A DNA stretch of 51,939 nt. It comes from a virus. The first letter of the stretch is position 1, and every line of letters begins with the position of its first letter. Location of the stretch: positions 1 through 51,939 of the IMG/VR virus record IMGVR_UViG_3300044998_001165; one strand, written 5' to 3'. Both the position numbers and the translations under genes were made by a program. A model generated the notes under the pieces. It ran no database searches, was not told where the DNA came from, and saw only the letters and a list, made by a program, of their open reading frames with translations. Positions 1,477 to 51,939 of this stretch are shown in pieces.

Positions 1477-4400
1477 GGAATCCGGGTACTTTTCTTTCTG
1501 ATGAAGGCTTCTCTTTTCATGCTCTTGGTCGTGATGGAGGCGATGCCCCGTTCGTCTATTTTCTGCTCCACGCGGATGTCCTGACTTTCAATGGCATCCG
1601 TCAGATCAGATAGCTTTTGACTGATCTCCGTTAATCGGTGGTCGTGGAGGACTACCTGATGCTCGATTTCCTTTTCTTTATAAAGGTTGTTTTGGTGAAT
1701 GATGTGCCGGTTGAGCGTGCGTACATCTTCGTATCGCTCTGATACCGCCTTCCAATTGGTATCAGGTAGGAATGCCTCAACGGGAGGCATCTTAGGCAGT
1801 TCGATTACAGCCCCCTTGTGGATCGCTTCGAGTACCGGACGGTTTTTATCTACGTGCTTTGCCTGCGTTACCCATTCGCCCTTATGCACCACCCCCGCAA
1901 TTTCGTGCGGATTGCCATAGCCCGTAAAGCCCCCTTTATAAAAACCGATCGCCGCTTCCGCCTGCGATTTGGCTGCTGCCAAGCCAGCTCCCAGAGCAAT
2001 CAAGGTCGCCGCGATCGTAATTGGTGCCGCGATACCGCCCTCTGCTGCTGCCTTGGCAATGGCAACAAGGGACTGGGCGACCAACTGGGCAACGGCTAAA
2101 GCCTGCTCCTGACGAACGGCATCTTCCTTCATCTTTTGAATGTCATCTAACCGCTTTTCCTCTAACTGCAACTCATCCGCGTTGTACTTCTCTTTAGCCT
2201 TCGTCCCTTGGTCTAAGAAACCTTTGATTTTTTCGATTTGCTCTTGTTGACGTTGCTCTAATAAGGAAAGCTGATTGATCGTTGCCTCTATGCCGGCACT
2301 GATTGCCGAAGCGATCGAATCCGCCAAAGTCTCAAAAAAACCGATAATGGCTTTGGCTTTCGCACCGCGTGCCTGACGATCTAATTCGTCCAACTTCCCC
2401 TTTCCCTCCTCGATCTTCTTATCAATGTCTTTCAACGCATCATTATTTGCCTGCAAATCTGCTGATGCTTTTTTCTTTTCTTCCGGTGAGGCGGTATCCG
2501 AAGTCAAAATGTCTTTATTTTTAGCAATTTGATCTTCAATCGCTGTTCGCTGTTTTAGGAACTTATCTAAATCTCTATTTGCGGCATCCAATTGCTTTTG
2601 CTGATCGGCACGCAGTTTCTTAAAGTCTGCAAACTGCCCCAATGCCCGCCCAATCGCCTGTGATCCCGCAGAGATTTGCGCCGCCAAGGCATCCGTATTC
2701 TTGCCCTCACCAATTTTGACTGTCTGCCCAATTTTATTTAGCGTGTTTTGGAGCAGTGTGGCTTGGGACTCCAACCGTTCCGCCGCTTTAAGGTTGATTT
2801 CATAAACCTTTTGCGCCCGCGCCTCCTCAACCTTGGCGACCTCTTCCGTGAATTTGAACTGAAGGGCAAGGTTCTCATTGTTGTATTTACGTATGATATT
2901 AGCCTTTTCTTCGGCTGTTAAACCCTCAACTTTGAGGCTCTTATCAAGATTTTCTTGCAGAATACGCTGTTCTTCGGCATAATATTCTATCAATAAAGTC
3001 TTGCGCCGTTCAAAATCATCTGTCCCACTGGCTAATTGAATGATGAGATCGCGTTGCGTTTTGCGGATTTCGCGTTCCTGCTGGAGCAGCTGCTCTAAGA
3101 GCTTTTTCTGAATAGCCGTCTCCTGTACCGTCCGCTTCTTGAAGTATTCATCCCGCAAGACGAGTTCTTCCTGCTGGAAACGCTCGACCATCTCTAACGT
3201 ATCGCGCTCGGAGGCTTCATCTATCTTGGCGATTTCTCCGATAAATAACTCCTCTATTTGTTTCAACTTTTGCGCTTTTACCCCTGCCGATAGCTCCGAT
3301 TCCTTCACCGCCTTGATGTTATCCAACCGTTGCTGTTGCAGGTTGGCAAGGGCTTCGGCTTTTCGGTTATCCAAATCCTTCTGGGCATTCCGCTTGGATG
3401 CCGCCAACTGCACCTGCGCCAGCCGTTCTTGCAGGTTGGTAGCACGGCGGGTAGCTTCGGCTTCAGTGAAGTCAAAACCCGCAGTTTGGTAGTCAAATTC
3501 AAATTGAATGAGGTTGGTCTGTTTCTTGTCGGCAAGTGCTTGGATGTCCGACTCCGCTTTTTGGATCGCCGTCTCAAAAGGTTTAAGGTCGGCTTTGATT
3601 TTGATCTCGACGTCGGCGGGTTTAGAGCCGGATTGGGGGGCATTAAATTGCGCTCGAAGTGCTGTAAAATTGTCTTTGGAGTCTTGTAAAACTTGGCTTT
3701 GGGTCTTTTTTTGGTCATCCAAGACCCGATTAAACCCGTTTTTGGCTAATTTTCCGTAATCCGTTAGGTCTTTGCGGAAATTATCCAAACTTAATTTAGG
3801 GTCAATATCAAGATTAGTATCAAGCAGTGTGTTAGATGCCTGCTTAATCAGATTAATCAAGGTTGCATAGCCTTTTGCCGCCAAGGCTAAAGTATTTGTA
3901 AAAGCACGCAACGGTAAAAGAGCCACATCAAGCGCACGGGAAAGGAGCGAAACGATCGTCGTTGTTGCATTGGCTTGGCTATTGAATGCGGGAAAGACTA
4001 CCGAAACAGCCGTTCCTATGGCATTAAAAAGATCGGAAAAGGATAAATAAATCTGCCGAAATATGTCTTGAATCGGTTGGGATTTAGCAATCAAATCCGC
4101 CAGAAAGTTACCGATAGATGCTACTGCCGGCGCAATCGCATTGATAATCGTTAATCCAAAAGTCTTTAATTGAATACCTATCAATTGGAAAGCGGAGGCA
4201 GTTCCTTTAGTTGTATCATTAAATACAGCGTATTGCTCATTTAAGGCTTTGTTCGCTTCCACCAGATTCAGTTGCGATTGCTGAACTGCTGTTAGTGGTT
4301 CGCGTGCTTGATTGAGTCCGGCATTAAAGTCAAGTATGAATTTTAAGAGTTTATCGCGCCCCGCATCCTCTCCGGGTGATCCACCCAAAGCATCGGCAAT

Positions 4401-5627
4401 TAGCAACTGCGTCTGCTGGGTTGTTAACCCGACTTTTTTAGCCTGTTCAGCAATACTGACAAAAGTCTGAAAAGCCGTCTTTGAGCCTGTCTTTAATCCT
4501 TTTTCAAGCTCTTGATTAAATTTGGGTCCCAACGGTTTGAGTGCATCCTGAGTAGCCTGCGAAAATTCAGATATTTTGATCTGTGCTTCTTTCAAGGCAT
4601 CAACCGCTTTATCATCATAAAAACCTTCCACCCGTGCTTTTCTGATGAAATCCCCCGTCTGGACAGCAGTAAGTCCGATTTCTTTTAACTGAACATCATA
4701 TTCATTTAATTGCCTTAAAAATTCGTCATCAAAAGCCCCACCGCGTACTAATTGATCTTGGACAATATTTGTTGCTTGGTCGAATGATATTTTTCTATTT
4801 TTGGATATAGTATTGATCGTATTGATTAGTTTTTCACTATCTATTCCAAAAGTATCACTAATAGATTTTATGTTAATAGATGCGGAACGCAACTCATTTC
4901 CCGTCAATCCTGCAAAACCTGCAATTTCATTCTGTAATGAGGCAATTTCTTTCGCACCCTCTTGTGCATCCGCTCCCAATGCAATGATTGCGCCCCCTAC
5001 CGCCGCTACTCCTACAGCAGCAGCCGTAGCCGGATTTGCCAATGAAGTCAACGATCCTGCCAAATTGCCTAAGCCACCCGTTGCCTGTTCCACACCCGGT
5101 AAATTGTTAGCCTGTTCCTGCGCACCCGAGAAAAACGATTTCGCCCTTGAGATCAGTCCGCCCCCACCGGATTCCTTGCTTTTTTGACCAACCTCCTGTC
5201 CCTTATTCGCCTCCGCATTGATTTTCTCCTGTTGCTCCTTAATCTTCTTCTGCACCTCAGCCAACTCCTGTGCCTCCCTAACGGCATCGGCAAAATGGTT
5301 GGTCATATACGCCAACTGGTCGTTTGCCTTTTTAATGTCATCCGCTTTGCTGAATTTCGATAACGCTTCGCTACCCGCTTGTGCCGTCTTTCCCACCTGC
5401 GCCATCTGTTTATTCAGCCCCGCCGTAGCCACCGAAGCCGTCCCCAGCTTTTTGCCGATCGCATCAAAGGCGTTGCCACTATCTTTTTTCGCATCATTGA
5501 CCGCCTTTTGCAGGTCATCAAAACGGCTGTTCAGTACCTCAACCGCCTGATGTGCCGTTTTCAAATTCTTGATCTCAACCGCGTTGAAATTAAGTTCAAA
5601 TGCAACCTCATAAGCAAGTTCCGCCAT
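1473..5627 (-). CDS. tail tape measure protein
   Basis: 1384 residues, the longest helical protein of the genome. It sets tail length and is threaded through the tail tube before DNA ejection. Long coiled-coil stretches (about 30-130 and 650-1140) alternate with hydrophobic segments, including Ala/Gly-rich membrane-like helices near 185-215 and 1200-1230. Near residue 1240 the C-terminal part carries the motif GGFTGYGNPHEIAGVVHKGE, seen at the ends of many tape measure proteins. The first ATG follows a Bacteroidota -7 box (TACCTTTG, 5646-5653). Its place after the chaperone-like gene agrees with siphovirus tail modules, although a plus-strand insert separates them. Confidence 0.93.
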   Translation of the reverse strand: MAELAYEVAFELNFNAVEIKNLKTAHQAVEVLNSRFDDLQKAVNDAKKDSGNAFDAIGKKLGTASVATAGLNKQMAQVGKTAQAGSEALSKFSKADDIKKANDQLAYMTNHFADAVREAQELAEVQKKIKEQQEKINAEANKGQEVGQKSKESGGGGLISRAKSFFSGAQEQANNLPGVEQATGGLGNLAGSLTSLANPATAAAVGVAAVGGAIIALGADAQEGAKEIASLQNEIAGFAGLTGNELRSASINIKSISDTFGIDSEKLINTINTISKNRKISFDQATNIVQDQLVRGGAFDDEFLRQLNEYDVQLKEIGLTAVQTGDFIRKARVEGFYDDKAVDALKEAQIKISEFSQATQDALKPLGPKFNQELEKGLKTGSKTAFQTFVSIAEQAKKVGLTTQQTQLLIADALGGSPGEDAGRDKLLKFILDFNAGLNQAREPLTAVQQSQLNLVEANKALNEQYAVFNDTTKGTASAFQLIGIQLKTFGLTIINAIAPAVASIGNFLADLIAKSQPIQDIFRQIYLSFSDLFNAIGTAVSVVFPAFNSQANATTTIVSLLSRALDVALLPLRAFTNTLALAAKGYATLINLIKQASNTLLDTNLDIDPKLSLDNFRKDLTDYGKLAKNGFNRVLDDQKKTQSQVLQDSKDNFTALRAQFNAPQSGSKPADVEIKIKADLKPFETAIQKAESDIQALADKKQTNLIQFEFDYQTAGFDFTEAEATRRATNLQERLAQVQLAASKRNAQKDLDNRKAEALANLQQQRLDNIKAVKESELSAGVKAQKLKQIEELFIGEIAKIDEASERDTLEMVERFQQEELVLRDEYFKKRTVQETAIQKKLLEQLLQQEREIRKTQRDLIIQLASGTDDFERRKTLLIEYYAEEQRILQENLDKSLKVEGLTAEEKANIIRKYNNENLALQFKFTEEVAKVEEARAQKVYEINLKAAERLESQATLLQNTLNKIGQTVKIGEGKNTDALAAQISAGSQAIGRALGQFADFKKLRADQQKQLDAANRDLDKFLKQRTAIEDQIAKNKDILTSDTASPEEKKKASADLQANNDALKDIDKKIEEGKGKLDELDRQARGAKAKAIIGFFETLADSIASAISAGIEATINQLSLLEQRQQEQIEKIKGFLDQGTKAKEKYNADELQLEEKRLDDIQKMKEDAVRQEQALAVAQLVAQSLVAIAKAAAEGGIAAPITIAATLIALGAGLAAAKSQAEAAIGFYKGGFTGYGNPHEIAGVVHKGEWVTQAKHVDKNRPVLEAIHKGAVIELPKMPPVEAFLPDTNWKAVSERYEDVRTLNRHIIHQNNLYKEKEIEHQVVLHDHRLTEISQKLSDLTDAIESQDIRVEQKIDERGIASITTKSMKREAFIRKKSTRIP

Positions 5628-6665: not shown

Positions 6666-7441
6666 TTACCGCTTCTTTTTTCTTGCCTCCTCCATCTGCT
6701 TTGTCCGCTCTTTTTGCATTCGCATCACGGCTTGCATGGTCGCATAGAAATTGTCTACACTACCTTTTATCAAACGTTCCTTATTAAAGGTGTTGCCGTC
6801 GGCGATCATCATGGCGAGGTACTCGGCTTCGGCATATTGGGCGAGAATTTCACCACCGACGCTCGGCTTACTTTGCTGAGCATCGACTGGCTTTGCTGTA
6901 AATAAGTCAGGAAATCGTGTTCGGAGATATCCTTCAAATGCGGTAACATACTGATTGCAATGCGTAAAAAAAAATCTTGTGCCTCCCGATCCTCACGGAG
7001 TTTCTTTACTTTTAAGGCATAGAAGGCATCGTTGAACTCATATGGGTTTTCATCTTCCAAGATGGCAAAACAGGCACAGAGGTTAAGCATAGCATCGAGT
7101 TCAAACAACAGTTTTCTCCGCAACATCAGTTCATCCCAAAGGGCAAACACTTTCGTAAAGTCAATCTTACCACCACTGCGAACATTTCGCACCTCATTCA
7201 TGTAAGCATCCATCTCATCAAGAAAGGCAGGCGACAATCCCATACCCGCCAATTTGATAGCCTCATCAATCTTTAGTTTGGATTCATAAGGTATGATGGA
7301 CGATTCGGCAATGACGTACCACTGCTCCCCCGTGTTTGGATTTCGGTAAGCCGGCAACAAGTGCGGGTTCTTAGAATTAGACAACTGCCCGATCTGCTGT
7401 TGCCTTTGAAAACGTTTGAATATATTTTTTAACCAACCCAT
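6666..7441 (-). CDS. tail assembly chaperone GT-like frameshift product
   Basis: If ribosomes slip back one base at the 9-T run (6966-6974), the first 158 residues of the 6809-7441 protein join a second frame of 100 codons ending at TAA 6666-6668. That gives 258 residues. The -1 frame has a TGA just before the run and no ATG before its middle, so it can only be reached by frameshifting. Its sequence looks truly coding: GGEILAQYAEAEYLAMMI, then a charged helical tail ending QMEEARKKKR. Many tailed phages make their tape-measure chaperone in two forms by a -1 shift just upstream of the tape measure gene, and this position fits. An indel in the homopolymer would give the same picture. Confidence 0.7.
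6809..7441 (-). CDS. probable tail assembly chaperone (G-like), zero-frame product
   Basis: 210 residues starting MGWLKNIFKR, mostly helical with a short basic N-terminus. Residues 95-160 are clearly coding. After residue 158 two frames overlap, and the zero frame ends 143 bases before the -1 frame. The gene starts inside the end of the large terminase gene (13-base overlap). No sequence family is recognised. The chaperone call rests on the slippery site, the two-product design and the position before the tape measure gene. It could instead be another terminase-linked protein. Confidence 0.6.
   Translation of the reverse strand: MGWLKNIFKRFQRQQQIGQLSNSKNPHLLPAYRNPNTGEQWYVIAESSIIPYESKLKIDEAIKLAGMGLSPAFLDEMDAYMNEVRNVRSGGKIDFTKVFALWDELMLRRKLLFELDAMLNLCACFAILEDENPYEFNDAFYALKVKKLREDREAQDFFLRIAISMLPHLKDISEHDFLTYLQQSQSMLSKVSRASVVKFSPNMPKPSTSP
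6965..6974 (-). promoter_or_regulatory. -1 ribosomal frameshift site (U UUU UUA)
   Basis: On the minus strand the zero frame reads GAT TTT TTT TTA CGC. This contains the heptamer T TTT TTA in the correct phase, the same slippery sequence used by HIV-1. Slipping at TTT/TTA moves translation into the open -1 frame. No strong downstream stem-loop was found by eye. Confidence 0.65.
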
Positions 7442-8736
7442 GGTTTTTGATAACTAATAAAGTCTGATAGCCAAGCATTCACCGCGTAACGAAAACAGTC
7501 TAACAAGTGTCCGCGCTTGAGGTCGGATTTGTCAATACTGTTGCCTTTCATCTGAATACTCGACAAGTCCTCAATCAAGCCTTTGCACTGTGAATCTATT
7601 TTAATATTTCTATGATTTTGTAAAACTGAATTGACCAATATTTGTGAACTTCTGTGTTCAGGATTTCGGGGCGATACTTCCAACAGACTATCCGACACAC
7701 CCAGCGTTCGTGTGATCTGATCGTAATGCGAACCCAAGCTAAGGGATAGGCTCGACCGGTTGCGTCCGCTGGCATCGCCCGTGATCCCAACGATCCGCCG
7801 ATTGTATTTTGATAGAATGCGCCGGCACAATTCCGCCACATCAGCATTCTCGACTGCAAATTCATCCACCACATAGAATTCTGCCATGCCTTTGTGTTGA
7901 ATGACGATACAAGTCATCGGATTAACATTAAAGTCAAAGGACAAATACAAAGGCAAACCCGGCACATACAGCCCACTCGAAACATGTTTCGTAGAATTAA
8001 AGGCATAAGCAAACAAGGTATCGGTCGGCACCAGCAGTTCACCTAATATCTCGCGTCGGTACGTCCGATCATCATACATATTTTTTAGTGAATCCAAGTA
8101 ATCCTTGGGCAAATTGCCTTTGTTGGCATAACTTGTCCCAAAGACGAACTTGATTTCAGGATCGTTACTTTCATGAATTGACCTAAGAAACAAGATGTCT
8201 TTGGCGGTGCGGGGCGGGGTGAAAGCATAGTTGATCCGGTGCTTCATGCCCAATTTCTTAAAAGTATTTCCCCGTAACCGTCCGAGCAAAACGTTGCGTG
8301 CCTCCTGCTGAACGTCTTGAAATTCGTCAATGAATATCCGGTCGAACTCCGTCCCCCGCTGAGAATCAAAATTTTCCAAACCATCCAATACCATATAACT
8401 GCCCCAGCACGTTGTTAATATCTTGTTGTTATTTACATTTGAATAGGCAGGCACGCCCCAACTTTGAGGCGGTATTTGATTCACTACGTAATGAACATTT
8501 TTAATAAAACCCATACGTTCCCAAACCGCCTGCACTTGTACGATGGTTGAATTTTTTAACATCTTAACAGTTGGCGCAAACAAGCCCGATACTGAGCGCG
8601 GAATGACCAAGGTCTGATAACTGGATGCGCCGAGAAAAAAAGACTTACCCATCCCCACACCGCCGACCAGAAAAGTCTCCCGGGCTTGGGAGCGCATCGC
8701 ATCAGCTTGCGGGCGATTCAGTTGCAGGGTTATCAT
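7429..8736 (-). CDS. terL: terminase large subunit
   Basis: 435 residues. The motor that pumps DNA into the prohead and cuts it. The ATPase half has a Walker A GGVGMGKS at 25-32 and a Walker B RIFIDE at 133-138. The nuclease half has RNase H-like acidic positions: D268 in LSFDFN, D321 in ITGDASG and D413 in LLDCFRY. Length and order of domains are normal for TerL. It overlaps the small subunit gene by 35 bases and the chaperone-like gene by 13 bases. It is separated from the portal gene by most of the circle, which is unusual. Confidence 0.95.
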   Translation of the reverse strand: MITLQLNRPQADAMRSQARETFLVGGVGMGKSFFLGASSYQTLVIPRSVSGLFAPTVKMLKNSTIVQVQAVWERMGFIKNVHYVVNQIPPQSWGVPAYSNVNNNKILTTCWGSYMVLDGLENFDSQRGTEFDRIFIDEFQDVQQEARNVLLGRLRGNTFKKLGMKHRINYAFTPPRTAKDILFLRSIHESNDPEIKFVFGTSYANKGNLPKDYLDSLKNMYDDRTYRREILGELLVPTDTLFAYAFNSTKHVSSGLYVPGLPLYLSFDFNVNPMTCIVIQHKGMAEFYVVDEFAVENADVAELCRRILSKYNRRIVGITGDASGRNRSSLSLSLGSHYDQITRTLGVSDSLLEVSPRNPEHRSSQILVNSVLQNHRNIKIDSQCKGLIEDLSSIQMKGNSIDKSDLKRGHLLDCFRYAVNAWLSDFISYQKPWVG

Positions 8737-9127
8737 CGGGGGCTAATAGGTTAACGTTCGGCGGAGTAGCAATCGGTTGGGTAAAGGTTATCACTTGGCG
8801 ATCCAATCCCAAGATTTTGATCCGGCGATCCAACACTGCCAAACAATCCTTCACATCGCCTTTCTCACGACTGATCTTATATAAATCATTGAGTTTTTCT
8901 AATATAATAGATGCTTCATAAGTTGCGTTTTTTTCATATTCACTTCTCAACAACTTAAATACCTTTCGTACTAAATTGCCTGCCTGTGGTTTACCTAAAC
9001 CAAAATTAGATATACTAAATTCAACCAATGAATTGAATTGCATACCTTCGGCAATTTTATTCCGTAAAATGGAAAATCTGCGCTCCATTTCTAATTGACT
9101 TGCTCTGGTCGGATATTCTTTTTCCAT
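8702..9127 (-). CDS. terS: probable terminase small subunit
   Basis: 141 residues if started at the ATG 9125-9127 (MEKEYPTRASQLEMERRF). The frame is open to 9280, but that extension would be translated from the GCCCC repeat array and is not credible. The protein is helical: an N-terminal helical region (about 8-60) with a possible DNA-binding turn, a middle segment RSEYEKNATYEASIILEKL, then a helix that could drive oligomerisation, and a disordered proline/alanine-rich tail. The position directly before terL and the size fit TerS. The repeat-rich palindrome just upstream would be a natural binding site. Confidence 0.75.
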   Translation of the reverse strand: MEKEYPTRASQLEMERRFSILRNKIAEGMQFNSLVEFSISNFGLGKPQAGNLVRKVFKLLRSEYEKNATYEASIILEKLNDLYKISREKGDVKDCLAVLDRRIKILGLDRQVITFTQPIATPPNVNLLAPDDNPATESPAS

Positions 9128-9240
9128 AATTAAGACGATTAGGACAAGTGGAGACAAATAAACACAGAACCCTAATCCGGCAGGCTTTGGTGTCAAACGA
9201 TTTTTCTCTTGCCCCGAGTTGCCCCGAGTTGCCCCACGCG

Positions 9241-9620
9241 TTAACTTATGAATGCCCCGAGTTGCCCCAGCTTGCCCCACGCGTTAAGAATGGGTAAATT
9301 CTATTAATTCAAACGTTAAACAGCCTCATTATCAGCGCGTTTTTTTAGTTAAAATATGTTTGCCCCGAGTGCCCCAGCCGAATTTGCACTATTTCTATAT
9401 AGAGAGCAGAGATATATAGGCTTAAGATAGACGATTAAGTCCTATACTATTTTTTTTTCTACAGCCTGTCAATTACTTTTTAGCTGGGGCACTCGGGGCA
9501 AACATATTTTAACCTTTTTAGTTCATTGATTATCAAGCACTTTAACAAATTCTATAACATAATTTACCCATTTTTGGGGGCTGGGGCAAGCTGGGGCAAC
9601 TCGGGGCATTCATAAGTTAA
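9241..9620. repeat. 380-bp imperfect palindrome with phased GCCCC motifs (candidate origin or pac site)
   Basis: All paired blocks share one centre at 9430.5: 9241-9278 with 9583-9620 (38/38), 9289-9300 with 9561-9572 (12/12) and 9348-9378 with 9483-9513 (31/31). A CTTAA/TTAAG stem sits close to the centre (9421-9439). Blocks between them have diverged while keeping exact spacing. GCCCC (left) or GGGGC (right) occurs about 14 times from 9211 to 9640, mostly at 9-11 base steps, like iterons on one helix face. The centre is AT-rich. It lies between the primase-helicase and terS genes. It could be a replication origin, a packaging site or a replication-stalling hairpin. Confidence 0.85.
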
Positions 9621-9651
9621 TAGATGTTTATGCTGGGGCATAATTGAGCAT

Positions 9652-9683
9652 AAAAAAAAATCCACTTTAGGCGGATTTTTTAT
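9652..9683 (-). terminator. terminator after the primase-helicase gene
   Basis: The stem AATCCGC/GTGGATT (7 bp with one G-U, plus strand 9659-9665 and 9671-9677) has a 5-base loop. It is followed by a run of T on the minus strand, and another T run follows on the plus strand, so it could act both ways. It lies about 20 bases after the 9705 stop. Confidence 0.8.
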
Positions 9684-9704: not shown

Positions 9705-12215
9705 TCATAAAGCCTCTATCTTATATTCACGAGGTTCTTTTTTGCCGGTCATGGGGTCTCTTTTACGAGGCTGTTCGGTCAGTTTCCATTTATTCATCTT
9801 ACAGAAATAGGTCAACCGTAATTTCATGGTTTCGCTACGCATGGAAAAATGTTTATTAACGGCATTGGTATACTTTACGATAAAACCATGTAAAGTATCC
9901 ATACATCCAACCGTTAGATTAGTGTCCGCCCATTCCAAAAATTCTGCACCACAAACCTGACGGGCTTTCCGGCTTTCCATATTGATCTTATTGTATTGCA
10001 TGAATCCGTTTGAAAGGAATTTCTCCAAACAATGAAGCATGTAGTTATCAAATAAAGCCCACTGATGGTCGTTCCAGTCATCGAAAAGCAGGTGTCCGAA
10101 CTCATCTAAGGGCGTGTAGTCCGGCGTATAGTAGGGGGCAAATTCCAAGAGGAAAGTACGTCGTTCATAAGATTTGCCCTCACCGGTCAGGACAAAATTG
10201 GTGGCGATGCAGAATTTCGGAGAAGCCTCAAAAGGAATATCAAACGATTGTTTATTTTTCTTTTCGACCTCTAAATTCTCGGTGATGGAGGAAAATAACC
10301 CGTTAAAATCGAACCGTTTGGGTACGTCGGAATAGAATAGAACGCGGGTATCGTGGGTGTATTTTTGAAAATTAAACTGCCCTCGAGAGTCGTAATCTTT
10401 GAGGTTGAGTACCTTGGTCATGTGTTGAATACCCTGCATAAACAAGCCCTTTCCGGTACCTCCGTTTGCCTCATTAGTATTCTCCGCATCCTGCTCATCC
10501 ATGAGTACGACCGCCTTAGCCACCGCCTTATTTTTGTATTGGTGGATCAGGTAACCGATGGCGGTTTCAAAAGCATTTAAGCGGGCAACGGAGGCTTGAT
10601 TAACGGTTTGTCCCTCCCGGACTCTGTTGCCCGAAATGGTGTAAATAAAATAAGAAAATTCATTAGATTTATCATATAATTTGGTTTCTTTAGGGCTAAT
10701 TTCCTGATAATCACGGGGCAAAATACTTGATTTCCAAACCAAACCGTCTAAGGATTCATAGGGCTTAAACGTCCTGTCTGTCGTGGTCTCCGTGAGTATT
10801 TCATTAGGGATAAATTCAAAGGTTTCTGTTTTAGAATGAATGTGTACATATCCGTTTTTGTAAAAAACATAGGCGTTAAAACGATCATCTTTTTTGATAC
10901 TTGATAGGTCATTTTTCTCGATTTCCTGCAAAAGATAGTCGGAATAAAGCTCCTTGAGCATCTTGCAATAAGTGCCGTACACTGCTTCGGACTTGACCTC
11001 TTGCAGGATATAATCAGACACAATGTCCTGTATTTGTTTTTTACTGACCTGCTCCACAATGTTGTTGACAATCCGAACAAAAACGGGTTCATCGGGGCTA
11101 ATGAACCATTTTCGGAAGCCAATTTCGTTCAGAAAATAGATAAAACGGGGGCGTTCAATCACTGCTTTACGCCTGCCATTATCGTCCTCTTCGTAATGCC
11201 AAAAGACTAATGGGTTGCGTTTCGGGGGCGTAAAACCAACCGCTTTGGCATAGTGGACAATCGTCCCAAAGGTGTATTTTTTATCATTCGGGGGTGGGTT
11301 TTGGACGTAGTTTTTAAGATATTTACAAATTTCAGCAAACTCCTTGGGTTTGAATTTGCCCTCATCTAACATGGATAATTGCCGATACCAATATTCCGCG
11401 ACTTCAGGCTCAAACGTGCGAAAGAGTGCAATCCCTACCGCATTCCACTGTTCATATTCAAAAGTTATGGAAAGGTTATTTTTAGTCAGGTATTCGGTGA
11501 TCTGCTCAATCCGCAGTAGATTATGTTTCAGATCGCCTGCTTTTTTACTTTCGGCGGATTCCTTTTCCGATTTTTTAGCGGGGGCTTTCGGCTCTGCCTT
11601 TACTTCCGGCGGATTTTTGACCACAAAGGGGAGCGCATCTCTATTGATGTAGATTTCGGGATCGCAAGACAGGAAGCAATTGCGGGTGATGTCTTTATTC
11701 TTCTGATCTGAGGATGTGAATTGGGAGGCAAAATATTTTTCTACCTGCATCCAAGCCCTTGTTTCGTGGAAATCCGTCCACTTTTCGGCAGTGGAGGCAA
11801 CGGGGCTGTCCGGCTCAACTTTTACCAATACCTTAACGCCCTTGCCGGATGGTGAGATAAAACAAGCCCAAACATAGGGGTTGTTAGCCAAACGGCTTTT
11901 AAGTTCGTCCGGCGTGATGCCCAGCGTTGCAAGCTGATCCGCATCGTAATCCAAGCCGACGACAAAATTGTATTCGGTGATCTTATCTTTTTGCCGAATG
12001 CCCTCATAACATCCGCTGATGGTTATGTAGGGCAATTCGGTGGTTTTGATCCGGTTTTGGTCTTCCTTTTTGACTTTCGAGCGAATGCGCCCGCATATTT
12101 CATCCAAGGTGTCGGAGGTTTCTATCATCTCAAACACCTGTTCATAATCTATCTGCTCAAAACGAACCGGAGGCTTGCGAAAGACCCCCGGTTCCCATAA
12201 TGTTACCTTTGTCAT
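9705..12215 (-). CDS. primase-helicase (BT4734/VirE-type N-terminus, helicase C-terminus)
   Basis: 836 residues. Residues 15-200 resemble the BT4734-like (VirE N) domain common in Bacteroidota mobile elements, with LDYDAD at 88-93 and SPSGKGVKVLVKV at 121-133, which fit primase-like catalytic loops. Residues 235-330 look like a PriCT helical domain (EQWNAVGIALFRTFEPE). The C-terminal half is a P-loop helicase of the phage/plasmid SF3-like type: Walker A GGTGKG at 585-590, then LFYSDVP, and IATNFVL with ERRTFLLEF. It would prime and unwind the phage origin. It starts 4 bases inside the previous gene (ATGA) and ends the replication operon just before the large palindrome, a likely target. Confidence 0.88.
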   Translation of the reverse strand: MTKVTLWEPGVFRKPPVRFEQIDYEQVFEMIETSDTLDEICGRIRSKVKKEDQNRIKTTELPYITISGCYEGIRQKDKITEYNFVVGLDYDADQLATLGITPDELKSRLANNPYVWACFISPSGKGVKVLVKVEPDSPVASTAEKWTDFHETRAWMQVEKYFASQFTSSDQKNKDITRNCFLSCDPEIYINRDALPFVVKNPPEVKAEPKAPAKKSEKESAESKKAGDLKHNLLRIEQITEYLTKNNLSITFEYEQWNAVGIALFRTFEPEVAEYWYRQLSMLDEGKFKPKEFAEICKYLKNYVQNPPPNDKKYTFGTIVHYAKAVGFTPPKRNPLVFWHYEEDDNGRRKAVIERPRFIYFLNEIGFRKWFISPDEPVFVRIVNNIVEQVSKKQIQDIVSDYILQEVKSEAVYGTYCKMLKELYSDYLLQEIEKNDLSSIKKDDRFNAYVFYKNGYVHIHSKTETFEFIPNEILTETTTDRTFKPYESLDGLVWKSSILPRDYQEISPKETKLYDKSNEFSYFIYTISGNRVREGQTVNQASVARLNAFETAIGYLIHQYKNKAVAKAVVLMDEQDAENTNEANGGTGKGLFMQGIQHMTKVLNLKDYDSRGQFNFQKYTHDTRVLFYSDVPKRFDFNGLFSSITENLEVEKKNKQSFDIPFEASPKFCIATNFVLTGEGKSYERRTFLLEFAPYYTPDYTPLDEFGHLLFDDWNDHQWALFDNYMLHCLEKFLSNGFMQYNKINMESRKARQVCGAEFLEWADTNLTVGCMDTLHGFIVKYTNAVNKHFSMRSETMKLRLTYFCKMNKWKLTEQPRKRDPMTGKKEPREYKIEAL

Positions 12216-24125: not shown

Positions 24126-27100
24126 TTAATGATTTACCCATGCCGGCAACGTGCCGACCGGAAAAGTTGCTTTGGGACGAATCCCGAAATTATGTAGTTG
24201 AGCGGGGTTGTTGTAAGGTGAGGTATCCGGCGCAATGATTCGACCTTCCGAGCCATTCGCACTACCAAATAAACTACCATTATCCACCCCGTTTTCATTC
24301 AGTCGCCAACGTCCAACCAAGTTCCCTGCCGGCGGAATACCGCCTAAGTTGTAGTTGTATAGTCCAAATACCTCGGAGGCACTCAAAGCCTTGTTATATA
24401 AGAGGATTTCGTCCAACATACCCCACAAACTCAAGTTCTTTGCCGAAACGGGACATTCAGAGAACCTCCCCTTGTTTTGATTACCTGCCCAAATCGGAAA
24501 ACCATAGTTCAAATTTTGGCTATCTGTGCCACCACTACCGGTGGTGTCGGACGTAGTCGTCGTCAAAAGACAGCCATTGGCATACAGTTTCCATTTTGTA
24601 TTGATAGTTCCCGGATCACGAACGGCGCAGAAGTGATACCACTGCCCATAATTCAGCCTCAAATTACCGGAAGTGATTTCTAATGCTTGCCCGGTATTTT
24701 TATGAATGACAAATTTCAATGCCCAAATATTGGCTGATATGTATCTCAAATAAAGCCCCCAACCCCGCCAAGAGGTACACCCCCCCGGCAACGCCGATGC
24801 AAAGCCCATCGAGCCGATTAGCCACTGCTCCTCCACCAAATCGAAAGCGTCTTTTTTACCTGACAACTTGGCAAAAAGAGCAACGGAAAAGGGATTTGTG
24901 CCGAAATTATAGGCAGAAATGGGCGGGATAACTAACGTATTATTGTCGGGATAATCCTCTTTATCAAGGTATTGCGGAATAAAAAATAAGGCATTGCCCA
25001 GCGGTTCGTTAGGAAAGGGAATCGCATTATTACACAACTCAACCGATTTACGAATTAACCTGTCGGACGCATCCTTAACCTCCACTGTATAAACATTATT
25101 CGGCGGTAAAGCCCCGGCATAAGCCGTTAATGATTGTGGCATATTATTCCATTTGTAAGTATAGGGAGGTGTTCCACCGGACGGTACGGCTACGATTTGC
25201 CCGTTAAATGGACATGCGGTAGCGGTGTTACAAGTTACATTCAAGGCAACCTGAAAGCCCTGTGCTTTCCGAATTGCGCCTACTCGATACCGACGATCGG
25301 TTATCAAAGCGGGTGCTGAAATCTTTGCTTTGGCAATATGGGTAGCATTATCAAACTGCAAATCGGCACTGACTAAGGGCGATTCGGAAAGGCGGGCTAA
25401 TAAGCCGGAGTAACTTTCGTATTCCTTAACATTAGGAAGAGAGAATATCTCTTTGTCGGTTATGGCTATAAAATTCGCATCGGTAGAATTATTTAAGTCA
25501 GTGACCTTGACATAACAATCCGTTCCGCCGGAGCAAAAAACACGTAACGGATCGCCGTTTTGTTCCTGTAATTCAATCGTCATCGTGGTTTCATCAAAAG
25601 CCTTAACCGCAACCACTTGCGTAAAGATTAATTCATCTTGAAACGAAATAGGGTTTTGATAATCCAAAATGAATTTATATTCCACGTAAATTGTCTTACC
25701 TGTCCAATCTTGATTCCCATTTGCCGGAGCTACGGGCGTTTGGGATGACTCAATTAGCGTTACGACATTAGCAGTATTCTGTTCCGAACGAATGCGAAAC
25801 GGGTATTTCATCTGCATTTCATAGGAATAGGGGTCTATATTGACCTCACCCTTACCGTTGGCATTCCAAGTTCCGTTCCCGTTCCCGTTTCGGGTAAAGG
25901 AGTGCTTTTCAACTACCTGCCGATAAATGCTTTCCAGATAGTATAACGATACCTCAATCCGTTGCAAAGCGGCAAACCATCCGCCCGAAAAAGCTATCCT
26001 TTTGGCATCATAAACATTGTAATTAACGCTCAATTCAGATTCTAAACGCTCGTAAGGGGCGCATTGAATTGCGTTACCGTATTCGGAATTGTAGTCCCGA
26101 AGCATTCCGGTAATCAATGGCGGGATAAGCGGTGGTGGAGTGTCGGCGGTAAGTGATGAAGAGATGAACGAATAGGATGCCAGTTTGTTTACCGCTTGCT
26201 CATAATTAACGACTACAATTACCCTATAACTTGCGCCCGGGGTTAACTGTGAGGCTTTTATGATAAACTGGGTGCGCCAAAGGTCTCCGACAACATTAAA
26301 AAGCTGAAAAGAAGGCGAATACAATACCGTCCCCCCGCCCCATTGGGTATAAAGTCCATAAGGTACTGGTAAAGGGACATTACTGCCCGAATTGGGTACA
26401 GTAGCGATGTCGGCTTTAATTGCCTGCAAAAAAGGCTGACCGTTCACTGCTCCCTCTTGAATGATCCAAACTACGACATGGGGGTTCGATTGTGTAGTAC
26501 GGCATTCAAAACGGAGTGCCGTATCTTCAAAAGCAGATATGCCCGTAACCGGCTGATTGTTTCGCAAAAGCGTAAAAGACGGATTGGCAACCAAGGTGGC
26601 TACCCCACCGTATTCATCTGAATTATACCAGCGTTCCGTTACGGTCTGATCGGCTTTACCATAACTCCAAACGGGGCGCGTTGCGGGCGGAATCGGGGCT
26701 TCTTTGAAGTAAAGCGACAGTCTAAGCACCCGATTGGTGTTGAAAACAGCTGTGCCGTTATTTTCTAACAGATCAACAGCATTAATGCTATTAAATAATA
26801 ACCGCCTGCTATTCCGCACAGACGATAGATAACCGTCCACATCCTCCAATAATGCAAAAGTGCCAACAACCTTAATCCGCAGGTTGCCCGCCTGCTCCTC
26901 AAATATAATAGACCAAATGCCCGGACGGGCTTCCTGTTGCCCAACGTAATCCAGTTGATAGGCGGTATTCAGCGTTTTACCCGTTGATTCTGCATAAAAA
27001 TAATTCCCCGACGGTGAGGACGGGTTTTCTAAAGCAAAGCCGGGCGGAAGAAACAGCCCGAAATTGAGGAAAAACTCTCCATCAGGGGCGGGATCAAGCG

Positions 27101-27233
27101 GGGCTTGGGCTTTGTCGGTATCAAAAACAGCCTCAAAACGGCATAAATTACCGATAGAAAGCATCCGAACACCCGCAACGGGCGTGCTTTCGGAAATTTG
27201 ATAAACGGCTAATGAAGTTGCGGTATATAACAT
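24126..27233 (-). CDS. tail-tip adhesin with SprB-like and LamG-like domains
   Basis: 1035 residues. The first 650 are beta-rich with no clear family. Residues 664-733 contain the SprB-repeat pattern (GGTPPYTYKWNNMPQS, then VYTVEVKDASDR) known from surface adhesins of gliding Bacteroidota. Residues 775-965 form a LamG/concanavalin-like jelly roll (FSVALFAKL, GQWYHFCAVRD, WKLYANGCLL, LDEILLYNKALSASEV). Both domain types bind glycans or surfaces, so this is a good receptor-binding candidate. It follows the 566-residue tail protein by 1 base. The SprB unit was probably taken from a host gene. Confidence 0.8.
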   Translation of the reverse strand: MLYTATSLAVYQISESTPVAGVRMLSIGNLCRFEAVFDTDKAQAPLDPAPDGEFFLNFGLFLPPGFALENPSSPSGNYFYAESTGKTLNTAYQLDYVGQQEARPGIWSIIFEEQAGNLRIKVVGTFALLEDVDGYLSSVRNSRRLLFNSINAVDLLENNGTAVFNTNRVLRLSLYFKEAPIPPATRPVWSYGKADQTVTERWYNSDEYGGVATLVANPSFTLLRNNQPVTGISAFEDTALRFECRTTQSNPHVVVWIIQEGAVNGQPFLQAIKADIATVPNSGSNVPLPVPYGLYTQWGGGTVLYSPSFQLFNVVGDLWRTQFIIKASQLTPGASYRVIVVVNYEQAVNKLASYSFISSSLTADTPPPLIPPLITGMLRDYNSEYGNAIQCAPYERLESELSVNYNVYDAKRIAFSGGWFAALQRIEVSLYYLESIYRQVVEKHSFTRNGNGNGTWNANGKGEVNIDPYSYEMQMKYPFRIRSEQNTANVVTLIESSQTPVAPANGNQDWTGKTIYVEYKFILDYQNPISFQDELIFTQVVAVKAFDETTMTIELQEQNGDPLRVFCSGGTDCYVKVTDLNNSTDANFIAITDKEIFSLPNVKEYESYSGLLARLSESPLVSADLQFDNATHIAKAKISAPALITDRRYRVGAIRKAQGFQVALNVTCNTATACPFNGQIVAVPSGGTPPYTYKWNNMPQSLTAYAGALPPNNVYTVEVKDASDRLIRKSVELCNNAIPFPNEPLGNALFFIPQYLDKEDYPDNNTLVIPPISAYNFGTNPFSVALFAKLSGKKDAFDLVEEQWLIGSMGFASALPGGCTSWRGWGLYLRYISANIWALKFVIHKNTGQALEITSGNLRLNYGQWYHFCAVRDPGTINTKWKLYANGCLLTTTTSDTTGSGGTDSQNLNYGFPIWAGNQNKGRFSECPVSAKNLSLWGMLDEILLYNKALSASEVFGLYNYNLGGIPPAGNLVGRWRLNENGVDNGSLFGSANGSEGRIIAPDTSPYNNPAQLHNFGIRPKATFPVGTLPAWVNH

Positions 27234-32329: not shown

Positions 32330-33469
32330 TTACCCCTCAATACTCTCACTAATCACGATCGGCATCAGTAACATCAGCAACTCCTCATTGCTTTGATTGT
32401 ATTCCGGCAAGACCACGGCTGCGCGGGAAGGGGTATCCAATTCCAAGGTTACCTCTTCGGAATCAATGTTGTTCAGCACCTCCGTCATCAGTGAAATATT
32501 GAACCCGATTTCAATTGCCTGCCCTTCATAGATACAAGAGATTCTTTCACGACCTTTGTTACCATCCAAATTATCAGAAGAGACCAACACTTCCGATTTA
32601 TGAAACGCAAATTTTGCCAAGCGATCTCCCGCATTAGCATAGTTTTTCAAGCGTTTTATGGTGGATAGCAAAAATCCTTTTCCAATCATTGCTTGGTTCG
32701 GACTGGATTTCGGGATGACGCTTTCATAATCCGGGAAAGTAGCGTCAATCAGTCGGCACACTAATAGTGTACTGTCAATATAAAAGAAGGCATTCCGGTC
32801 GGTGTATTGTAAAATGATGTCTTCATTTGCGTTGGTGCAGGCGTTTTTGACCAACTTCAAAGCCTTGGCTGGCAAAATAAAATTGGCGGGTTCATTCGCC
32901 TTAATATCCGTGCGCCGACATCGCACTAAGCGGTGCGCATCTGTAGCAACAAAGTCCGCATACTCCATTCCGAATTGAAAATATACCCCGGTTAAGGCGA
33001 GCTTCATTTCATCAGTTGAAACCGCAAAAATCGTTCGATCAATAATAGCATTCATTACATCGGGATTGATGGTAATGGAATGCGTCTCATCCGCTTTGGT
33101 GAACCGCGGGAAGTCCGCTCCATCCCTGCCGGTAATGTCATACTCCCCGTTATTGGTGATGATTTTGACAATCGGCGAAATGCTGTCCGGTAATAATTGA
33201 AATGTTAGCTCCTGCTCCGGTAATGCCTTAAGGGTATCAAGAATGATTTTGCCGGGCAAGGCTATGTTAAATATGGATTTCGGATCACATTCCACCGATA
33301 GCACGGTTTGCATCATGATCTCCATATCGGTAGCTGTCAGGAATAATTGTCCTTCCTGTACCTCAAAAAGAATATTGGCAACGATCGGCAAGACGGGCTT
33401 GGAAGGCACTGTTCCCAAAATTATGCCGAGGCGTTTTTGTAATTCGGATGACGAAACAGTGAATTTCAT
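32330..33469 (-). CDS. dnaN: DNA polymerase III beta-subunit-like sliding clamp
   Basis: 379 residues from ATG 33467-33469 (MKFTVSSSELQKRL), the usual start of DnaN and coupled to the upstream stop by ATGA. Three clamp domains are visible: residues 1-120 (SKPVLPIVANILFEV, TATDMEI), 125-245 (FAVSTDEMKLALTGVYF, VATDAHRLV) and 250-379 (LIDATFPDYESVIP, ending ELLMLLMPI). The signature ATDAHRL and ATFPDY are intact. The clamp ring holds polymerase on DNA. The phage shows no polymerase, so it may engage the host polymerase or tether the neighbouring exonuclease and nuclease. Confidence 0.95.
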   Translation of the reverse strand: MKFTVSSSELQKRLGIILGTVPSKPVLPIVANILFEVQEGQLFLTATDMEIMMQTVLSVECDPKSIFNIALPGKIILDTLKALPEQELTFQLLPDSISPIVKIITNNGEYDITGRDGADFPRFTKADETHSITINPDVMNAIIDRTIFAVSTDEMKLALTGVYFQFGMEYADFVATDAHRLVRCRRTDIKANEPANFILPAKALKLVKNACTNANEDIILQYTDRNAFFYIDSTLLVCRLIDATFPDYESVIPKSSPNQAMIGKGFLLSTIKRLKNYANAGDRLAKFAFHKSEVLVSSDNLDGNKGRERISCIYEGQAIEIGFNISLMTEVLNNIDSEEVTLELDTPSRAAVVLPEYNQSNEELLMLLMPIVISESIEG

Positions 33470-34002
33470 GTGTTGGAAGTATTTAAGTACCAATCAATTA
33501 GGGTTCTAAAATCATCATACTTGCGTATGACTTTAACAAGGTAGTTTTGAGCAGTGAGCAAGGCGTGTACCTTACGCTGTTCCGCATCAGGATAATTGCC
33601 GGGCATCTTAAACTCAACAAATAATCCTCCGTAGCTATGGGAAGCCACATTGACAGCGAGGTCGGGATACCCATCTGTGTACCCCGATTCTTTCGCTTTA
33701 TAATTTCCGTATCGAGAACTTTGGTTTCTAGTATGACAAATGACTACATCTGGATAAGTGTTGCGAAGCCATTTGACGCACTGGGTATGCAAAGCGTGTT
33801 CATCTGACATTGACTTTTGTGCCGCTAAGTCGTGATCTACGTTCGTATAAAGTTCTCTTTGTTCTGACGTAATAACAACAGGGGAATCCGATATAGGCAT
33901 ATCAAACAGGGCATGAAACTCCTTTTTAGTCAGGCGTTTCGTTGATGAGGATTTCTTTTTACCCCCCGAATATGCGTGAATGTAGCCCTTTCTTTTAGCC
34001 AT
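33466..34002 (-). CDS. VRR-NUC-type nuclease
   Basis: 178 residues. After a basic N-terminus (1-35), residues 68-170 form a VRR-NUC (PD-D/E-xK) domain: EHALHTQCVKWLR, then GYPDLAVN with D114, LFVEFK with E130 and K132, and AEQRKVHALLTAQNYLVKVI. Phage VRR-NUC proteins cut branched or structured DNA. It is coupled by ATGA to the sliding clamp gene, so clamp-directed resolution of replication intermediates before packaging is plausible. Confidence 0.88.
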   Translation of the reverse strand: MAKRKGYIHAYSGGKKKSSSTKRLTKKEFHALFDMPISDSPVVITSEQRELYTNVDHDLAAQKSMSDEHALHTQCVKWLRNTYPDVVICHTRNQSSRYGNYKAKESGYTDGYPDLAVNVASHSYGGLFVEFKMPGNYPDAEQRKVHALLTAQNYLVKVIRKYDDFRTLIDWYLNTSNT

Positions 34003-34366: not shown

Positions 34367-34773
34367 TATTTGACCAACTTAAGTTTGCCGTTCTCGAATC
34401 TTTCCTTTGAACGTTGCTCAACACACGAACGCGCGGCGTATAAATGAGAAAGAGCCAAATTGTTTGACGGATCGGGGAATTGACCATTCAGTTTAGCAAT
34501 CCGGTCAATGAGTACATCAAGAACTTGTATATCAATCACACCACTAACCATTTCTTTATCGTCAATACGATGAAAAAACGTAAGTTCCTGTAAAGACTCA
34601 CTTTCCACCCAATGACCGTCTTCATCACGTCCGTTAAGATTTGAAATGACATACCGATGTGCGCCACCATATTCATCAGTGGCAACCTGTACGGTATTTT
34701 GCAGGAATCCATTTACCACCGGAGCAGTATAATTACGGGACTCGACCGCTAAATTGTTTTTAATCAATTTCAT
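34366..34773 (-). CDS. hypothetical protein with C-terminal helical hairpin (possible Acb2/Tad1-like)
   Basis: 135 residues. The first 65 are beta-rich (NTVQVATDEYGGAHRYVISN). Residues 85-130 form two helices: VLDVLIDRIAKLNGQ, then DPSNNLALSHLYAARSCVEQ. The second half recalls the hairpin of Acb2/Tad1-type phage proteins, whose pattern is P-x-x-x-x-LA-x-x-x-L-x-x-A and which soak up cyclic nucleotide signals of host CBASS/Thoeris defences. The match is by eye and weak. It lies in a cluster of small accessory genes, where anti-defence genes often occur. Confidence 0.55.
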   Translation of the reverse strand: MKLIKNNLAVESRNYTAPVVNGFLQNTVQVATDEYGGAHRYVISNLNGRDEDGHWVESESLQELTFFHRIDDKEMVSGVIDIQVLDVLIDRIAKLNGQFPDPSNNLALSHLYAARSCVEQRSKERFENGKLKLVK

Positions 34774-50865: not shown

Positions 50866-51642
50866 TTAAAATAAAGTCAAGGTTTCTTTTACGGATTCGG
50901 GCTTTTTCCATACCTTGGGATACTGTCTCCATGTCCGACCATCCAAAAACGGTTCTTTATTCCCGCCTTTCCATCCGCCGGTCTGCTTGTAGAAAAACGG
51001 AACGTCATGGGCAACACATTGATCTTTGATGTTACGTACCCATTCTTCTTGCATTGGGCGCGGTGTAGTACCGGATTCCCCGCCGACAATGACCCAATGG
51101 ATACCACCCAAATCAATTGCGCCTAAGTCCTCCAAAAGCGGTTCGATACTCAAAAACCTAATGTGAGCCGAACAAAAGTCTAATGTCCGCTTTCGATCTA
51201 ATTGCGCCCGGTTTTCAATAGAGACTCCCATCCAAATGTTAGGTGTCCATGAAAGGTCATAATTCAGTTCAAACAAACGCCCCACCCGCTTGGTCAGGAT
51301 TTGAAAGGTATGTCGGCTTGCCTTATTCATCACCCCAAAGACCTCTTTCAAAAACGATTCGGGGATGTGTTCGTGGAACATATCCGACATGCTGTTGACG
51401 AAATACAGGGTCGGATCACGCCGGGACAGTGGTTGCTTGAGCCGGTCGGGATGGCAAACCACCTGAGTGAACGGTACTTGAAATTGCTTAGGCACGGTCG
51501 GATCACCGCTACTTTTCCAATGTTCGTAGTAACGGGTGTGCAGTTCCTCAGCATAGCAAAACTTACATCCCGCCGATATTTTGGTACATCCGGTTACGGG
51601 GTTCCAAGTCCTTTCAGTCCATTCGATACTCGATTTGCCCAT
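50866..51642 (-). CDS. phage Gp37/Gp68 family protein (DUF5131, three-cysteine motif)
   Basis: 258 residues, full length. It opens with the family signature SSIEWTERTWNPVTGCTKIS, with cysteines at 19, 26 and 29 in C-x6-C-x2-C, like a radical-SAM cluster site. The blocks DPTLYFVNSMSDMFHE, FQILTKRVGRL, IWMGVSIENR, LSIEPLLEDLG and WVIVGGESG follow in order. The family is common in phages and islands; the reaction is not known to me. Its ATG overlaps the stop of the preceding small gene. Confidence 0.92.
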   Translation of the reverse strand: MGKSSIEWTERTWNPVTGCTKISAGCKFCYAEELHTRYYEHWKSSGDPTVPKQFQVPFTQVVCHPDRLKQPLSRRDPTLYFVNSMSDMFHEHIPESFLKEVFGVMNKASRHTFQILTKRVGRLFELNYDLSWTPNIWMGVSIENRAQLDRKRTLDFCSAHIRFLSIEPLLEDLGAIDLGGIHWVIVGGESGTTPRPMQEEWVRNIKDQCVAHDVPFFYKQTGGWKGGNKEPFLDGRTWRQYPKVWKKPESVKETLTLF

Positions 51643-51783: not shown

Positions 51784-51939
51784 TTAGTGATAGCCAGCGC
51801 ACGCTCCCTTCCTACACTTTTCCGTCTCTGCTTGCAGGACTTCGATCTCATCATGTAATCTTTTACGCAAAGACTTAATGAGCATCACATATCCCTCATT
51901 TGGAGGGCAGTTGCTTTCTGAAATAGATTTTTGCTGATC
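51784..51939 (-). CDS. small hypothetical protein, 3' part (crosses the circle junction)
   Basis: The same gene as at 1-130. This end holds all codons except the ATG, ending at TAA 51784-51786. On the circle it encodes 52 residues ending KGACAGYH. It is followed after one base by the next small gene. Confidence 0.7.
   Translation of the reverse strand, partial: DQQKSISESNCPPNEGYVMLIKSLRKRLHDEIEVLQAETEKCRKGACAGYH
51813..51939. repeat. terminal direct repeat, right copy
   Basis: Identical to 1-127. Joining the two copies closes the circle and restores an intact small gene across the junction, which supports true circularity or circular permutation. Confidence 0.97.

Follow-up and report, generated by a model that had tools for sequence, protein, structure and literature searches.

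A 380-bp symmetric palindrome with mirrored iteron arrays, in a viral genome represented by IMG/VR record IMGVR_UViG_3300044998_001165 (the window, here the whole 51,939-nucleotide stretch that we analysed), is with a probability of about 85% a phage replication origin, and the adjacent gene encodes the SF3 (D5-type) primase-helicase that would recognise it. We favour this reading because the same layout, with different iterons, recurs beside homologous primase-helicase genes, because the iteron core and the C-terminal tail of the initiator co-vary in plasmids pSR31 and pSR14, and because the fold of the initiator resembles those of the SaPI5, D5/E5, NrS-1 and E1 helicases. An origin had already been suggested in the original prediction, made from the letters of the window, and the comparative evidence supports it, since the layout tracks homologous primase-helicase genes. 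The reading also has precedents in other systems (PMC6092414, PMC7581432, PMC4234260).

The window begins and ends with an exact 127-bp direct repeat (1-127 and 51813-51939); hence, it is a circularly closed and probably complete genome of 51,812 bp. Genes around the palindrome all lie on the minus strand, in the order primase-helicase, hairpin, palindrome, putative TerS, TerL (Table 1). The primase-helicase stop codon is separated from the start of the palindrome by 84 bp, so that the candidate origin immediately follows the initiator gene. The protein originally named TerS does adjoin the TerL gene, but a family search with its 141-aa sequence (8702-9127) gave no detectable match. Elsewhere, the phage carries tRNA-Ile (GAT) and tRNA-Trp (CCA) genes at 151-224 and 613-685, besides which no Rfam elements were found in the window, a gene for a DNA polymerase III beta clamp (32330-33493) that adjoins an endonuclease-like gene (33466-34002), and a region with a strong DUF5131 match (50866-51642; E 1e-86). 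Among the ORFs searched, none was recognisable as a phage DNA polymerase. A 1035-aa protein encoded at 24126-27233 contains Laminin_G_3 and a SprB repeat, which is suggestive of a Bacteroidota host.

Table 1. Features around the palindrome in the window, followed by the corresponding sites at homologous loci ("gene" is the primase-helicase gene; spacings in bp).
Feature or locus	Coordinates	Strand	Description
Terminase large subunit (TerL)	7429..8736	-	
141-aa protein, probable terminase small subunit	8702..9127	-	assigned from position only
Outermost iteron array	9210..9235	+	three TGCCCC, 10-bp spacing, beyond palindrome
Symmetric palindrome, core of putative replication origin	9241..9620	.	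centre 9430.5
Left outer block	9241..9279	+	39 bp, perfect mirror of 9582-9620; AT box TTAACTTATGAA and three iterons, 10-bp spacing
Left 12-bp perfect block	9289..9300	+	AATGGGTAAATT; mirror 9561-9572
Left inner block	9348..9378	+	31 bp; AT box GTTAAAATATGTT and two iterons, 9-bp spacing
AT-rich centre, putative melting site	9379..9482	.	104 bp, 30% GC (genome 44%)
Right inner block	9483..9513	-	mirror of 9348-9378
Right outer block	9582..9620	-	mirror of 9241-9279, three iterons
Single outlying iteron	9635..9640	-	GGGGCA, beyond palindrome
Intrinsic-terminator-like hairpin	9655..9681	-	3' of primase-helicase gene
Primase-helicase, putative initiator	9705..12215	-	836 aa; BT4734-like_N, weak PriCT_2, DUF5906
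pSR14 (L061)	4768-5106		3' of gene; iteron TGGTCCA, spacings 11/74/9
pSR31 (L059)	2415-2738		3' of gene; iteron TGTCACA, spacings 10-11/75/8-9
L161			3' of gene; iteron GGTCC, spacings 11/75/9, mirrored 9/75/11
L189	3000-3456		3' of gene; iteron GTGTCAC, 457-bp palindrome
L176			3' of gene; iteron TTTGTCC
L191			3' of gene; iteron TTGTCAC
L171			3' of gene; iteron AAGTGTTG
L150	6547-6680		3' of gene; iteron GTGAC
L133/L137			just 5' of gene; iteron AACTTTTATT

All perfect blocks of the palindrome (39, 12 and 31 bp, each with an exact mirror) share one centre, 9430.5, and 127 of the 190 arm positions are complementary overall. Outside the perfect blocks, 45 of 108 arm positions match (28% expected; shuffle p = 0.002), and these diverged stretches lack indels, so that their spacing is kept. 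The self-complementarity score of the palindrome is 139, compared with at most 30 among 300 dinucleotide shuffles and at most 29 in the rest of the genome. The residual arm similarity between the blocks supports an old inverted duplication with kept spacing, and the mismatched stretches within the arms argue against selection for base pairing; the duplication would instead have been retained through selection on its motifs. TGCCCC occurs 14 times, on the plus strand at 9210, 9220, 9230, 9253, 9263, 9273, 9361 and 9370 (spacings of 10, 10, 23, 10, 10, 88 and 9 bp) and on the minus strand at 9486, 9495, 9583, 9593, 9603 and 9635 (9, 88, 10, 10 and 32 bp). On the left side only, a 35-bp direct duplication within 9210-9287 (43-bp step; second copy 9253-9287) comprises an iteron triplet with ACGCGTTAA and looks like recent array growth. 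Much of the original description holds, namely the single centre, the 12- and 31-bp blocks, the AT-rich centre, the old duplication under motif selection and the number of iterons. However, the outer block is 39 rather than 38 bp long, the iteron array reaches past the palindrome on both sides (9210-9235 and 9635), and the proposed helical phasing applies to the 9-10-bp spacings inside arrays but not to the 23- and 88-bp intervals, which are not whole helical turns.

Searching the palindrome region against phage records gave no match. The pattern TGCCCCNNNTTGCCCCNNNTTGCCCC had 15 matches in viral contigs, of which only the near-identical L003/L054 were relevant; the others look like unrelated repeats and were dropped. 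Close relatives of the window's own phage were limited to one near-identical contig.

The putative initiator carries SF3 helicase motifs in alignments A1 and A2: Walker A (GGTGKG), an acidic Walker B (SDV/DDV) and a motif-C-like ATN/TTN that keeps the conserved Asn. Its helicase profile found nothing when searched by sequence against the PDB, and the relation to solved helicases was seen by fold comparison only. For an AlphaFold model of the BT4734-like_N/PriCT_2/DUF5906 protein (mean pLDDT 71; stretch 202-332 unreliable), the best solved fold was that of the SaPI5 primase-helicase (VIA-align Z 21.4 over 354 residues for 7om0_D, and a second match at Z 21.0), at a sequence identity of only about 15%, and further matches were vaccinia/mpox D5/E5 (Z ~19), NrS-1 (Z 14) and papillomavirus E1 (Z 11). 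The modelled motor is therefore of SF3/D5 type and appears related to SaPI Rep, in fold only. The last 102 residues, modelled alone, form a helix-helix-strand-strand arrangement with many winged-helix proteins among its matches (Z at most 5.2), consistent with the C-terminal domain being a winged helix.

We gathered primase-helicase homologues from viral contigs, GTDB genomes, phages and plasmids. Since exact common-centre scoring overlooks gapped cases, self-alignment and iteron scores were used instead. Distant homologues had the same layout with unrelated iterons on two Salinibacter plasmids, at several Bacteroidota/Rhodothermota loci and, upstream of the gene, on phage contigs (Table 1); L180 was likewise counted among these loci, and for L161, L171, L176 and L180 the reverse complement of each locus was read. 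In the clearest cases the spacings recur: an inner pair at 8-9 bp, then 74-76 bp (88 bp in the window), then an outer array at 10-12 bp, all mirrored. An iteron score of at least 5 within 600 bp 3' of the gene was found for 10 of 43 clusters of relatives, counted at the 70% level, compared with 11 of 600 control windows (Fisher p = 1.3e-7). The centre exceeded the locus or the genome in AT content in each of the nine cases checked, which further favours an origin, as does the absence from the 14.9-kb plasmid pSR14 of any annotated replication initiator besides the primase-helicase. In both pSR14 and pSR31, the iteron site is the strongest palindrome in the entire replicon. Comparison across relatives, proposed with the original prediction, thus revealed mirrored iterons at many loci, but none in one 70% cluster of 82 mostly marine (phage) loci, L058 included, which has no such structure beside the gene. 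The complete genome MW202828 has no structure of this strength anywhere. In L086 and L151 the primase is followed by hairpins that look like terminators, and these were rejected as origins, and a site in a Persicobacter plasmid (L064; score 36) was rejected as an AT-rich inverted repeat without clear iterons. In L189, a second repeat family (ATACTATTTATAGTAT; 3480-3580) adjoins the iteron palindrome. Both pSR31 and pSR14 (L277, L278), annotated as non-mobilizable, have a terminase-like gene near the phage-type primase-helicase and ParA, and pSR31 has an integrase; they are possibly phage-plasmids or satellites.

In these two plasmids, co-variation also points to a matching of iteron and C-terminal domain. 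Their initiators differ at 44 of 774 residues; the C-terminal 24 residues account for 10 of these differences and the 370-residue helicase part before them for 4 (tail versus rest of the initiator, Fisher p = 1.4e-7). Codon changes in the tail comprise 7 synonymous and 10 non-synonymous, compared with 58 and 4 in the helicase. Between pSR31 and pSR14 the iteron core has switched from GTGTCACA to GTGGTCCA in both orientations, and neither origin contains an exact copy of the other plasmid's core, while the flanks and the centre of the site stayed alike. Explained most simply, the iteron would be read by the initiator's C-terminal tail, the part that matches the wing in the winged-helix model. 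The co-variation is strong evidence, but it comes from one pair of plasmids and so from what would be one event.

Around the circular genome, the detrended cumulative GC skew is lowest at 9569 and highest at 34483, the two points lying 0.48 of the circle apart. This fits a bidirectional origin at the palindrome but is suggestive only: under block permutation the signal is not significant (p 0.06-0.24), and AT skew disagrees. For the change point of GC3 skew, at 9957, simple permutation gave p = 0.0015 and block permutation 0.06, which makes it suggestive only, and pSR14 and pSR31 showed no skew signal at the site. From the symmetry of the site and from known SF3 initiators, we infer a double-hexamer mechanism. 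The C-terminal domain of the initiator would bind the iterons, and the inner pairs (9-bp spacing) together with the outer triplets (10-bp spacing) would nucleate one hexamer per side. The two hexamers would sit face to face across the centre, open the duplex there and move off in opposite directions, and the N-terminal primase domain would prime both strands, giving a bidirectional theta-type start. The long palindrome would then be a by-product of two mirror-image binding platforms rather than a cruciform signal.

We considered other functions for the region. A packaging (pac/cos) site for the small subunit of the terminase, also raised in the original prediction, would account for the position of the palindrome directly upstream of the putative TerS and TerL genes. 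In other phages there are TerS sites that resemble iterons, and pSR31 and pSR14 also have a terminase gene 1.5-1.6 kb further on. However, in five relatives the next gene does not encode a terminase: as read from translations, the structure is followed by genes for an SSB (L161), a VRR-NUC-like protein (L191), a DnaA-like protein (L171), a RecA-like ATPase (L150), or a short unknown protein and then a helicase-like one (L189). Moreover, the TerL relatives L004 and L005 have no such repeats upstream of TerL. Because the next genes vary and the TerL relatives lack the repeats, we conclude that the structure tracks the primase-helicase and not the terminase; the co-variation partner, too, is the primase-helicase C terminus. 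With the structure present at homologous primase-helicase loci without an adjacent terminase, we consider a packaging site very unlikely.

To a like degree, we doubt that the region serves to regulate the late (terminase-structural) operon, as its operator or upstream activating region, without a role in replication. The array at 9210-9235 does lie just upstream of the operon start region, on the correct strand and with helical spacing typical of activator sites, but the mirror arm is directed at the primase gene's 3' end, which requires no promoter, and in relatives the structure follows the primase-helicase despite unrelated next genes. The site may conceivably combine both roles, as origin and late-operon operator.

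We think it highly improbable that the cruciform or hairpin is itself the selected origin signal, as has been argued for pRN1, in which an intact stem-loop 3' of the replication gene is required (PMC4234260). The single-strand folding energy of the region is indeed far lower than that of shuffles (z -17), but 63 of the 190 arm pairs are broken and the loop between the inner blocks is 104 nt long. Relatives keep the iterons, their spacing and the symmetry with weaker pairing: the palindrome score is 39 in pSR31, and L161, despite its mirrored iterons, is absent from the palindrome matches. These observations speak against the full-length cruciform of the original prediction as a selected feature. 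Lastly, an assembly fold-back chimera, or a recent inverted duplication without function, can be set aside with near certainty, since, although inverted repeats are a known assembly artefact, the arms have diverged with conserved spacing, the separate contig L003 runs through the palindrome with one mismatch (at 10914) in 5,116 bp, and the layout recurs in relatives; the first two points refute the chimera that the original prediction had named as its possible undoing, and the palindrome is real at 9241-9620.

As a replication origin, the window's site would by analogy work like the pri-rep-ori of SaPI/PICI elements (SaPIbov1, SaPI5, EcCICFT073), which also have the origin directly downstream of an initiator helicase gene, whose initiators recognise iterons via a C-terminal domain, and which include the best structural match of the window's initiator, the SaPI5 primase-helicase. 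The original prediction of an unusual phage origin thus holds only in part, the plan being that of SaPI/PICI-type origins. Unlike these helper-dependent satellites, the window is a complete tailed-phage genome (circular, ~51.8 kb) that encodes its own TerL; its mirrored arrays lie on a strict common-centre dyad within a 380-bp palindrome, and its primase domain is of BT4734-like_N/PriCT_2 type. Phage P4 alpha, like the putative initiator here, is a primase-helicase-initiator fusion that uses iterons, but P4 has two sites, ori and crr, kilobases apart, rather than a single symmetric one. SV40 and papillomavirus E1 origins have inverted site pairs at which double hexamers assemble, with much smaller core origins. 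The E1 motor fold is alike; however, the origin-binding domain of eukaryotic-virus SF3 initiators is N-terminal (domain order, PMC7581432), unlike the putative C-terminal binding domain of the window's protein. The Sulfolobus plasmid pRN1 has an essential inverted-repeat structure just 3' of its prim-pol/SF3 gene (orf904), and its authors proposed the same arrangement for phage BIP-1 and suggested a bidirectional start from symmetry (PMC4234260). The location fits that in the window, but the pRN1/BIP-1 structure is a stem-loop of about 100 bp without iteron arrays, with stem integrity reported as required, whereas the window has iterons and its pairing is broken at one third of positions. In SCCmec, the D5-type helicase Cch2 binds direct repeats immediately downstream of its gene via its C-terminal domain (PMC7581432). 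Unlike the window, that site has only three direct iterons.

To our knowledge, few Bacteroidota phage replication origins seem to have been characterised, and among open-licence papers we found no description of such an origin class in these phages. We are evenly divided on whether the sites represent a widespread new class of dyad-symmetric iteron origins for BT4734_N/DUF5906 primase-helicases in Bacteroidota/Rhodothermota phages and plasmids, in which the iterons switch repeatedly together with a short C-terminal wing and the mirrored geometry (inner 8-9 bp, ~75-90 bp, outer 10-12 bp) is kept for head-to-head double-hexamer loading. With the recurrent layout as a rule, such origins can be located, and the motif bound by the initiator can be predicted, from nothing but the DNA sequence. 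In pSR31 and pSR14 a specificity exchange already exists, so that some ten residues and a few bases would suffice to test the initiator-iteron code. The conserved mirror geometry offers a structural hint of the way in which D5-type primase-helicases may be loaded in pairs.
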